DNA from: Clostridia bacterium
GTDB taxonomy: Bacteria; Bacillota; Clostridia; Oscillospirales; Acutalibacteraceae
Length of the DNA stretch: 64,000 nt
Reading direction: 5' to 3'
Assembly: GCA_017399405.1 (NCBI GenBank)
Contig: JAFQCT010000012.1
Coordinates: 62,001 to 126,000 of the forward strand
Part shown: positions 39,881-44,538 of the stretch, piece after piece
Layout of the letters: each line of letters begins with the position of its first letter
Numbering within the stretch: position 1 is the stretch's first letter
Notes under the pieces: model-generated
Seen by the model: the letters and a program-made list of their open reading frames with translations, nothing else
Databases searched by the model: none
What the model was told of the DNA's origin: nothing
Made by a program: the position numbers and the translations under genes

Positions 39881-40150
39881 AAGTTAATATTTAACCAACA
39901 AACCGATGATAAAGAGTAGTAGTTGATTTGTTTCGTTTGTAGAGAGCCGATGGTGGTGGGAGTTCGGTATCGAAAATTTCAATGAATGGACTTTTGAGGG
40001 CAATCCGATATGTAGGTGCGACGGAGGGCAACCGTTATAGTGCTGAGTGTATATTTGTACACGGTGAGTGCGTAGGTTTACTACGAATTTGGGTGGTACC
40101 GCAGATTTTTCAGTCTGTCCCATATTATTGGGATGGACTTTTATTTTTTG
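39881..40150 (+). promoter_or_regulatory. Tryptophan T-box riboswitch
   Basis: A leader of about 270 bases with T-box features in order: a Stem I region with an AGAGAG start near 39940; a specifier-like GAA-TGG-A at 39985-39990, whose TGG (39987-39989) is the tryptophan codon; the T-box core GGGTGGTACCGC (40091-40102); and a terminator hairpin (about 40112-40140) followed by a run of T. Uncharged tRNA-Trp would pair with the specifier and the core and prevent termination. The gene it controls, trpB, agrees with the specifier. The specifier assignment is by motif; I did not fold the whole stem. Confidence 0.9.
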
Positions 40151-40241: not shown

Positions 40242-41462
40242 ATGATTTTGAACAATGTTGATTTTGAAACTTATTTTAACAATTATCCTGACAAAAATGG
40301 TTATTTCGGCAAATACGGTGGAGTTTATATTGACGACAAATTAAAGGCTGCTATGGCTGAAATTACTGAGGCATATTTTTCAATTTGTCAGTCAAGAAAG
40401 TTTATTGCAGAACTTCGCAGAATCCGTAAAGAGTTTCAGGGCAGACCTACTCCTGTAACACATCTTGAAAGACTTTCAGACGCTCTTGGCGGTAAAGTTC
40501 AGCTTTATGCAAAGCGTGAAGACTTAAACCATTCAGGTGCTCACAAACTTAACCACTGTATGGGTGAAGCACTTCTTGCAAAATATATGGGCAAGAAAAA
40601 GATTATTGCAGAAACCGGTGCAGGTCAGCACGGTGTTGCTCTTGCTACTGCGGCTGCATATTTTGGTCTTGAATGTGATATCTATATGGGCTCTGTTGAC
40701 ATTAAAAAGCAAGCTCCAAATGTGGCAAGAATGAAAATTCTTGGTGCAAATGTGGTTGAGGTTACTCACGGGCTTCAGACACTTAAAGAAGCAGTTGACG
40801 CTGCATTTGACGCATACAGCAAAGAATATGAAAACTCAATTTACTGCATCGGCTCAGTTTTAGGCCCTCATCCATTCCCAATGATGGTACGCGATTTCCA
40901 AAGCGTTGTTGGTATTGAGGCAAGAGAACAGTTTATTGAAATGACAGGTCATCTTCCTAACGCTATTGTTGCTTGTGTTGGTGGCGGTAGTAACGCAGCA
41001 GGACTTTTTGCAGGATTCTTAAATGACCCTGTTGATATTTACGGTATTGAGCCACTTGGTCGCGGTCCTAAACTCGGTGACCACGCTGCAAGTCTTAAAT
41101 ATGGTACTGAGGGCATTATGCACGGATTTAACAGCATTATGCTTAAAGATGAAAACGGTGAGCCTGCTCCTGTTTATTCAGTTGCAAGCGGTCTTGATTA
41201 TCCATCATCTGGCCCTGAACACGCATTCTTACAAGAAATTGGCAGAGTTAAGTATGATGTAATTGATGATGAAGAAACAATTGACGCATTCTTCAAACTT
41301 TCAAGAATGGAAGGTATTATTCCTGCTATTGAAAGTTCACACGCAGTTGCATATGGTATGAAACTTGCACAGACTATGGAACACGGTTCAATTCTTATTA
41401 ACCTTTCAGGTCGTGGCGATAAAGATATGGACTATGTAATCGAAAATTACGGAATAAGATAA
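40242..41462 (+). CDS. trpB: Tryptophan synthase beta subunit
   Basis: A 406-residue PLP enzyme that condenses indole with serine to give tryptophan. The N-terminus ([10 protein letters not shown]), the PLP lysine K102 in [16 protein letters not shown], the catalytic glutamate in [11 protein letters not shown] and the phosphate-binding [10 protein letters not shown] are all canonical for the TrpB1 type. There is no trpA, nor any other trp gene, in the window. It either partners with a distant TrpA or uses free indole, which is plentiful in the gut. It is controlled by the T-box upstream and has AGGAG 8 bases before its ATG. Confidence 0.95.
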
Positions 41463-43386: not shown

Positions 43387-43445
43387 TCGGACACGGAAGA
43401 ACCGTCCCCTTGTGTTCGCTATTGTGTTACTTGTCCCCTTGTGTT
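43387..43445. repeat. REP-like GGGGAC element
   Basis: Two direct copies of GTCCCCTTGTGTT (43404 and 43433). The first is preceded by GGACACGGAAGAACC, which can partly fold back on it. This wording resembles GGGGACGGTTC-type palindromes dispersed in clostridial genomes; that likeness is from general knowledge. The element runs into the 3' end of the small gene on the minus strand. Confidence 0.6.
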
Positions 43446-43657
43446 ATTTTCGACCTTGAAAAATCTACACCTTTCTTGGCACAGTTATTATGAAGGTAGT
43501 AAACATCCTTATCTGGATAAGTAGTTAATTTCACGCACTCTCCCGGTAAAATCATACAATCACAATGATAACAAAGTTCTTCCTGCTCGAGCGCAACTTC
43601 TTCATAGTCGCAAAGCTCGGCTGCGCCATCTTCAGTCCAATAATAACGTACTTTCAT
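43427..43657 (-). CDS. Small cysteine-rich hypothetical protein
   Basis: A 76-residue protein with six cysteines: one at residue 16 (ELCDYEE), a CYHCDC cluster at residues 29-34, one in GECVKL and one in HNNCAKK. This pattern suggests a zinc-ribbon-like metal site, with HNNC supplying the last ligands. AGGGG lies 10 bases before the ATG. The last residues (ITQGDK) are encoded by a REP-like repeat, so the natural C-terminus may have been altered by the repeat. Function unknown. Confidence 0.6.
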   Translation of the reverse strand: MKVRYYWTEDGAAELCDYEEVALEQEELCYHCDCMILPGECVKLTTYPDKDVYYLHNNCAKKGVDFSRSKITQGDK

Positions 43658-43740: not shown

Positions 43741-43843
43741 TTGAGATTCTTCGCTACGCTCAGAATGACAACTCCCTCAGTCAACTTCGTTGACAGCTCC
43801 CTCAATGAGGGAGCGATTGCAGACCGTGGAGGCCTGCCCCTAC
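43741..43843. repeat. Composite of three dispersed repeat modules
   Basis: First comes a GAGATTCTTCGCTACGCTC-type module. Next is ACTCCCTCAGTCAACTTCG...GAGGGAGC, related to the interior of the element at 41609. Last is CCGTGGAGGCCTGCCCCTAC, whose inverse resembles the interior of the element at 15241. No open frame of interest is present. Confidence 0.6.
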
Positions 43844-43866
43844 ATTACAACTCTACTATTCTCGAC

Positions 43867-43892: not shown

Positions 43893-44017
43893 CAACATAT
43901 TAAGAATACCAAATTTTTATTCAAATGTCAATAGATTTCTCATATTTTTAATAGTATAATGCACAAATTCTACTTAATTAACAATTAAAAACTATCAACT
44001 TTATACAAAATTACATA

Positions 44018-44046
44018 TTGTTTTTTCACTTTTTCTATGTTATATT
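44018..44046 (+). promoter_or_regulatory. Promoter of the putative RNA gene
   Basis: TTGTTT, 17 bases, TATATT in a strongly AT-rich stretch. The next 420 bases lack a normal gene and end at a terminator. Confidence 0.6.
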
Positions 44047-44380
44047 ATAGACACAGAAAGGAAAAGGTGATTCCAATGTACAGGTAAAAACCAAACCCAA
44101 AGTAAACCAAAAGGTTTTACAAGAAAAGGATAAAGGTGGTTCCAATGTACAATTGAAAATCCGAATTCAATCTTAAAGAAAAGGTTAAAAGTTAAATAAT
44201 AAAACTACCTGAGTAAAAAGATTGAACCCTGAAACGACTTTTTGAAAAATGAATATTCCTACACAAAAAAGTCCATCTCACTTACGAGATTTAATATAGA
44301 TTATGTAGGAAAGTGTTTAGGTGATATGGAATGTAAGAGTTATCAAAAGGTCGGAACATTAAGAAAGAGAGGTACACAAA

Positions 44381-44413
44381 ATGAAGTTAGATATCAAGAG
44401 TGAACAGAAATAA
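44381..44413 (+). CDS. Possible 10-residue leader peptide
   Basis: ATG with GAGAGG 8 bases upstream, encoding MKLDIKSEQK. Its stop codon (44411-44413) lies inside the first arm of the terminator hairpin, an arrangement seen in attenuators. It is very short, so translation is speculative. Confidence 0.3.
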   Translation: MKLDIKSEQK

Positions 44414-44474
44414 CCCTCCAAGCCAAGTAAAAGATGTGTAAAGAAACATCGGCTTTGAGGGTTATTTCTTTTTG
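44406..44474 (+). terminator. Long terminator of the putative RNA gene
   Basis: A 13-bp perfect outer stem (AGAAATAACCCTC with GAGGGTTATTTCT), continued by AAGCC/GGCTT and GATGT/ACATC inside, then TTTTTGCCCTTTTTT. Confidence 0.9.
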
Positions 44475-44538
44475 CCCTTTTTTATGTCTTGATTTTAATT
44501 ATAAACTATGATGTAAGCTATAAATTCATATTTACACA

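Follow-up and report, generated by a model that had tools for sequence, protein, structure and literature searches.

A candidate family of autonomous structured RNAs with few-codon reading frames in Clostridia

The locus studied here lies in a 64-kb stretch of Clostridia DNA (the window, meaning that whole stretch) and, by its sequence matches, belongs to a family scattered across Clostridia. Its members appear to be autonomous, peptide-coding structured RNAs that have no Rfam match and whose anatomy would be categorically new. On balance we favour the reading that the locus makes an RNA of about 420 nt with a peptide-coding 3' end, and that its very short 5' reading frames (mini-ORFs) load ribosomes which stabilise or regulate it. 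The features of the locus are as follows.

43999..44010 (+): upstream promoter box CTTTATACAAAA (family form TTTTGTACAAAA), immediately 5' of the -35, from the line-up of elements
44018..44046 (+): promoter, -35 TTGTTT at 44018-44023, 17-nt spacer, -10 TATATT at 44041-44046, by sequence reading; the layout is found by eye in most of 66 elements
44076..44087 (+): mini-ORF 1, ATG TAC AGG TAA (M-Y-R-stop), with Shine-Dalgarno (SD) AGGTGA 5' of the start
44145..44156 (+): mini-ORF 2, ATG TAC AAT TGA (M-Y-N-stop), with SD AGGTGG 5' of the start
44166..44226 (+): helix P2, 44166-44174 with 44218-44226, from the predicted fold
44235..44353 (+): long-range helix P3, 44235-44245 (CGACTTTTTGA) with 44343-44353 (TCAAAAGGTCG), 11 bp, from the fold and from own-versus-cross pairing
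44256..44311 (+): inner helix P3b, 44256-44263 with 44304-44311, seen by eye in L014, L015 and L098
44269..44290 (+): H-type pseudoknot, S1 44269-44272/44280-44283 and S2 44275-44279/44286-44290, from a shuffle test and relatives
44319..44336 (+): degenerate third box, AGGTGATATGGA-ATG-TAA (start-stop), left out of the box tests; relative L002 has a similar stretch
44367..44372 (+): SD GAGAGG of the 3' ORF
44381..44413 (+): 3' ORF, peptide MKLDIKSEQK, stop TAA
44406..44473 (+): intrinsic terminator, stem 44406-44424/44451-44469, apical hairpin GATGT/ACATC and T-tract, from the fold and covariation

Much of the original prediction reads out of the sequence as it had been described: the TTGTTT-17-TATATT promoter, the roughly 420 transcribed nucleotides without a normal-sized ORF followed by a strong hairpin and T-tract, the 20-base box in two copies 69 nt apart with one difference, and the degenerate third copy. 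What had been noted as a 20-base box combines a ribosome-binding site with a reading frame of 2-4 codons. The terminator stem is present but had been drawn too short at 13 bp, as pairing extends over 18 of 19 positions, with a single mismatch between runs of 13 and 5 pairs; it starts in the last codons of the 3' ORF and takes in the stop codon. The predicted transcript is more stable than its dinucleotide shuffles (z = -4.97, 0/100 equally good). The sole listed ORF of at least 40 aa inside the unit, a 53-aa TTG ORF, was rejected because its frame is not kept: the 90%-identical L002 has a 1-nt gap in it (MAFFT alignment).

The -35 hexamer of the window agrees with TTGACA at 3/6 positions, and the promoter is absent from the output of a simple sigma-70 scan. 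By eye, most of the 66 elements have a TTTCTGNGTTTTGCATAA-like upstream box, a ACTTTNTACAAAATT-like box at about -42 from the -10, a TATATT -10 and a -35 that is often TTGAAA or TTGCAA; in about ten of them the script chose another AT-rich hexamer. The family form TTTTGTACAAAA is found with at most three mismatches in 42/66 elements against about 15% of shuffles, and with at most one mismatch in 16/66 against 0.1% of shuffles, leaving 24/66 with none within three. This common promoter region suggests shared regulation.

Reading frames at the two ends

The 5' box has the form GGT-N-CC(A/G)-ATG and is present in 76/102 distinct elements, with one to three mini-ORFs per element near the 5' end; under this strict pattern 26/102 elements have no box, and four elements are truncated upstream. 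An early stop follows after 2-4 sense codons in 78/78 distinct boxes (after exactly three in 73/78), compared with 144/506 of the other ATGs in the same regions that run for at most four sense codons. These 78 boxes thus have the makeup of a regulatory minigene, with an SD, a start, a few codons and a stop, and with a length that appears selected. The encoded peptides are led by MYR (27) and MNR (12), followed by MYN, MFR, MYK, MRR, MRN, MAK, MEE and others, and two mini-ORFs start with GTG. The last codon is AGG in 41/78 boxes; AAG, AAC, AAT, AGA, CGG and more make up the rest.

Some elements carry additional boxes. In L161, downstream of 365 on the minus strand, there are three tandem M-F-R-stop boxes, and L060 (5708-6352, minus strand) and L116 have three short boxes each; the latter two also carry a box-like GGAACAGTCCT-ATG without an early stop, outside the strict pattern, which speaks against the short-frame reading. 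The repeated boxes in L161 and L060 look as if the unit had expanded by duplication.

Single-sequence folds repeatedly offer a hairpin at the mini-ORF, in which the SD pairs with an ACC past the stop and CC pairs with the AGG codon. We rejected this hairpin as the conserved feature because covariation is absent despite that recurrence, own pairs scoring 2.78 and cross pairs 2.79 (p = 0.67). An early stop is retained in 32/32 distinct boxes whose codon 3 lacks GG; together with the missing covariation this indicates that the short frame, not the hairpin, is the conserved feature. In the structures predicted for 51 elements, pairing takes up most of the mini-ORF SD (mean unpaired 0.21, above 0.5 in only 6/51) and leaves the AUG open (0.77). 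The paired SD argues against free ribosome loading, and mini-ORF initiation may itself be regulated.

A ribosome or tRNA trap would use the same frames differently: the mini-ORFs would yield di- or tripeptidyl-tRNA drop-off, titrating tRNA or initiation, and the hairpin at the 3' ORF would add a pause. The repetition of mini-ORFs up to three times (L161, L060, L116) and the frequency of AGG as the closing codon fit such a trap, as does the toxicity of minigenes via peptidyl-tRNA drop-off (PMC8708949, excerpt). We nevertheless think a trap unlikely, since the last codon is not fixed, the SD is predicted to be paired, and the conservation of the 3' peptide and of the pseudoknot would be left unexplained.

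At the other end of the element, an SD, an ATG and an open frame of 8-10 codons occur in 37/37 modules, which came from blastn and all fitted the 3' ORF. The peptide consensus is M-(M/K)-LDxKxxQK, typically M(M/K)LDIKSEQK-stop. In these modules L, D and K5 are invariant while the codons vary (Leu is TTA in 30, CTG in 4, TTG in 2 and CTT in 1), and the stop is TAA in 29, TAG in 5 and TGA in 3. Positions 4, 6 and 7 are variable, Q8 is replaced by E in a single case, and an in-frame 3-nt deletion has removed the last codon from one copy. The 58 distinct ten-codon frames give the same picture, with the limit that the pattern used to collect elements fixes L, D, K5 and Q/E, so that residue conservation is partly built in there. 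Comparison shows that the 3' ORF has persisted while its codons changed synonymously and its stop took all three forms. A conserved small peptide, recognised here by its coding signature rather than by translation, is what a dual-function sRNA would carry. A peptide-level pattern with third positions free matched 25 places in 24/300 family genomes, with none for the reversed-pattern control; in the class set it matched 6/283 genomes, of which five are true and one has two matches in unrelated frames, with one match for the control. This pattern has no room for the second M/K codon, and the genome of the window is therefore unmatched.

The terminator shows two-sided changes in 11/16 consensus pairs, stop-codon columns included. 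The stop codon is part of the stem base and the partner strand changes along with it, UGA facing UCA and UAG facing CUA. The SD of the 3' ORF is predicted to be moderately open (mean 0.59 unpaired, above 0.5 in 31/51).

No other part of the element is as well conserved in DNA as the 3' segment, and sRNAs are typically stand-alone units that end in a terminator; both points would suit a base-pairing sRNA that recognises target mRNAs through this segment as an antisense seed, the peptide being secondary. However, the variation has the shape of codons (Leu TTA to CTG, three stops, the in-frame deletion), and free codons 4, 6 and 7 are hard to reconcile with a seed, which makes this explanation unlikely.

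Folded middle domain

Between the 3' arm of P3 and the 3' ORF there are typically 35-45 nt. Pairing is stronger between the two arms of one element than between arms exchanged among elements (-12.2 versus -10.3 kcal/mol, 71 elements, p = 3.6e-12), own pairing being among the best 20% in 34/71, while in 37/71 more than 20% of cross pairings equal it. Against shuffles P3 is weaker, with z below -1.64 in only 38/98 elements. RNAalifold, run after the own-versus-cross test on a 19-sequence P3 alignment, returned no structure because the P3 arms do not align.

The pseudoknot, which is enclosed by P3, scores 15.8 over 73 elements against 9.9 for the shuffled null (p = 2.9e-11); 29/73 elements beat their own shuffles at 5% and 14/73 gave no pseudoknot, and the window element scores 21, with 1/20 shuffles as good. 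Examples are TAAAG-g-TCTCG-CTTTA-CGAGA, AAAAG-aa-TTCCG-CTTTT-CGGAA and AAG-gaa-ATCTTG-CTTA-CAAGAT. When 47 S2 hairpins were found regardless of S1, the 20 strongest (those with an S2 score of at least 6, picked blind to S1 and including many similar ones) all had a 4-bp S1 at a 1-3-nt gap. In 16 aligned rows, taken from the 47 for S1 pairing with a 2-nt gap and so biased upward in percent paired, 97.9% of cells pair, compared with 36-60% when slid. Two-sided changes occur in 7/9 pseudoknot pairs of these selected rows; row L073 is shifted by one column and counts against the pairing. Near-duplicates had been removed at a similarity of 0.75 in the P3 and pseudoknot tests and of 0.70 in one other analysis. 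Covariation supports P3 and the H-type pseudoknot in many, not all, elements.

This is a different pseudoknot from the one originally drawn, which joined 44236-44243/44265-44272 with 44256-44263/44304-44311. The first of those helices rivals P3, the type of pairing that relatives support, and its second arm was off by one nucleotide (44236-44243 pairs with 44266-44273). The other pair of arms looks right as the nested inner helix P3b, judged by eye in a few relatives. As for a stand-alone noncoding RNA, the description holds in that the unit looks autonomous, structured and pseudoknotted, and fails at noncoding, given the mini-ORF boxes and the conserved 3' ORF. Covariation, whose absence would have spoken against a structured RNA, was found in more than ten diverged homologs. 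Conserved reading frames, which would also have spoken against it had they been of normal size, do exist in the homologs, yet lie far below that size. That the RNA is purely noncoding, with its ORFs there by chance, would accord with the covarying structure; 78/78 early stops, and a 3' ORF that varies synonymously and uses every type of stop codon, make it highly improbable.

Variants of the middle domain exist. Ten allied class members share a second motif, a hairpin ACAC-RRCG-GUGU followed by a ATATAGAT-like stretch, and a P3 pair CGCCTTTTG/CAAAAGG; some members from the genus of the window have a similar GCACAGACG..ATATAGAT motif. Six loci of f35, another family (L152, L157, L159, L160, L171 and L172), carry CACGACGGTG, ACG and a ATATAGAT-like stretch, all upstream of P3.

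Distribution and genomic context

We searched with R1, a covariance model of the 3' module built on 37 sequences, and tallied genomes at E <= 0.001, counting that of the window in the genus, family and class tallies. Matches were found in 8/40 genus genomes (all at E <= 1.3e-18; at E <= 0.1 there were 16/40, of which only these 8 are counted), in 30/300 family genomes, where several rows repeat one terminator as seen from the other strand, and in 16/291 class genomes, two of them weak (1.6e-4, 8.6e-4). Within family f35 the figure is 10/16 genomes. By blastn there were matches in 55/398 family genomes, chiefly in two modules, one being the 5' box and the other the 3' end; this tally takes in short single matches that may be chance, with two candidates scored per genome. 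A degenerate DNA pattern for the 3' ORF found at least 80 loci in genome contigs, and among those matches listed all were MAGs titled Clostridia, Oscillospiraceae, Ruminococcus or Faecousia, most of them named for animal gut samples. With opposite-strand duplicates of the terminator left out, a genome has one to four copies. The patchy distribution indicates that the function is not essential.

The Rfam search that the original prediction had proposed found nothing near any family cut-off by E-value over the element, in the window or at 12 related loci; at the gathering score it found only a T-box and tRNA, both elsewhere in the window. No title describing such an RNA, nor its peptide sequence, was found in the open-licence PMC papers searched.

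Three further observations concern the window itself. The T-box leader, at 39897-40125, precedes an ORF at 40242-41462 that we take to be tryptophan synthase beta. A 76-aa cysteine-rich small ORF (43427-43657, minus strand) lies between a presumably MATE-like gene and the element. Parts of the stretch at 43741-43850 (TTCTTCGCTACGCTCAGAATGAC and CTCCCTCA..TGAGGGAG) resemble what we presume to be a dispersed repeat, perhaps the repeat cluster of the original prediction.

The sole match in the plasmid collection is the 861-kb pMM35_01 of the human-gut species Vescimonas fastidiosa, where the copy (L131, 5810-6095) lies between a TetR gene and spoVAC. It has a 2-codon mini-ORF (ATG ACC TAA) and the 3' peptide MMLDIKSEG, with its TAG in the stem. 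This record, in whose gene table there are known gaps, lists no gene at the match. A search of phages at 1e-5 was negative (at a limit of 1, a lone match at E = 0.4, which is chance) and two exact patterns found nothing in viral contigs; with only the one plasmid-collection record besides, we rejected a phage or plasmid origin.

A homologous upstream gene, apparently marking the same locus, is found in L001, L061, L092 and L108; a DNA query with the upstream gene gave no match in 10 genus genomes without the element, in a search that had no positive control. A selfish or horizontally moving cassette without host function could be patchy, with one to four copies per genome in varied contexts, as observed. 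It is nonetheless very unlikely in view of the shared upstream gene, the phage, viral and plasmid results, and the lack of noticeable ends, repeats or mobility gene (by inspection only).

The gene downstream of the element is on the same strand in 36/77 loci and on the opposite strand in 41/77; these are the 77 of 82 loci that have a downstream gene, the other five having none, and the ORF calls are rough, having missed the annotated spoVAC in Vescimonas. In the window, the glgA-like gene downstream is convergent to the element. There is no common neighbour, the largest neighbour cluster covering 13/82 loci. With downstream genes on either strand and no shared neighbour, the unit most likely acts alone. 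A cis attenuator or riboswitch-like leader, which the overlap of the peptide stop with the terminator stem resembles, would need a co-directional downstream gene, and we rejected it as barely credible on this strand split, there being also no neighbour family beyond those 13 loci.

Proposed action and comparison with known systems

In the autonomous, peptide-coding RNA that we favour, ribosomes on the mini-ORFs would form one or two peptide bonds and then stop. They would thereby act as a roadblock that shields a mostly untranslated RNA from 5'-3' decay, brought about by an enzyme of the RNase J type, and/or control whether the 3' ORF is translated. Between this site of loading and the 3' ORF, with its fairly open predicted SD, the pseudoknot domain would form a divider. 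The effector would be the conserved peptide, synthesised up against the hairpin, in trans or as a nascent chain; we propose it as effector or nascent-chain sensor because it is the best conserved product. The RNase J step is extrapolated from Bacillus, where the RNase J1 5' exonuclease accounts for the effect of a 5' roadblock on long untranslated regions (PMC3997798, excerpt), and SD occupancy at a leader mini-ORF protects mRNA in the cases presented in the excerpt of PMC8708949.

More tentatively, the element may be a ribosome-interacting RNA in which docking at the mini-ORFs, the pseudoknot and the 8-10-residue peptide at the terminator hairpin together make a signal, for example a translation-state sensor with a peptide output. 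If true, this would make the element the first of its kind among ribosome-interacting RNAs. Reading frames of a few codons are easily taken for noise, yet here they are conserved across Clostridia families in an autonomous RNA together with a pseudoknot, and the 8-10-residue peptide is to our knowledge among the shortest conserved peptides. The effect of such minimal translation is directly testable, as is whether annotation misses genes this small.

The RNA possibly works like dual-function RNAs. B. subtilis SR1 and S. aureus RNAIII are dual-function sRNAs of this kind, stand-alone RNAs with a short ORF that is longer than here. The element resembles them in being an autonomous transcription unit, as judged from the sequence of its promoter and terminator. 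Dual-function sRNAs act by base pairing, and we know of none with mini-ORFs of about three codons. Like tmRNA, a stable pseudoknotted RNA with an internal ORF of about 10 codons, the element joins a pseudoknot to a short frame; unlike tmRNA it has its own AUG and SD, and there is no Rfam tmRNA match within the 64-kb window. The leader peptide tnaC is terminator-coupled and likewise places a short peptide beside a terminator, but our element has no consistent downstream gene and is free in its type of stop codon.

Vibrio VcdRP, as described in the excerpt of PMC8672173, is likewise a stand-alone promoter-to-terminator RNA with a short ORF, which is longer (VcdP, 29 aa). The raiA/ModT RNA of Firmicutes (PMC11706538, excerpt) also stands alone and has a conserved structure; our element differs in having coding features and no Rfam match. 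Closest to the mini-ORFs in form are the minigenes of axe-txe, LEE4 and ycbK, which in the excerpted account (PMC8708949) also consist of an SD and a very short ORF of two to six codons and serve regulation or mRNA protection. Those are cis leaders of a protein gene, whereas here the mini-ORFs open an autonomous RNA and can be repeated, and the sole cistron that follows them is the 3' micro-ORF.
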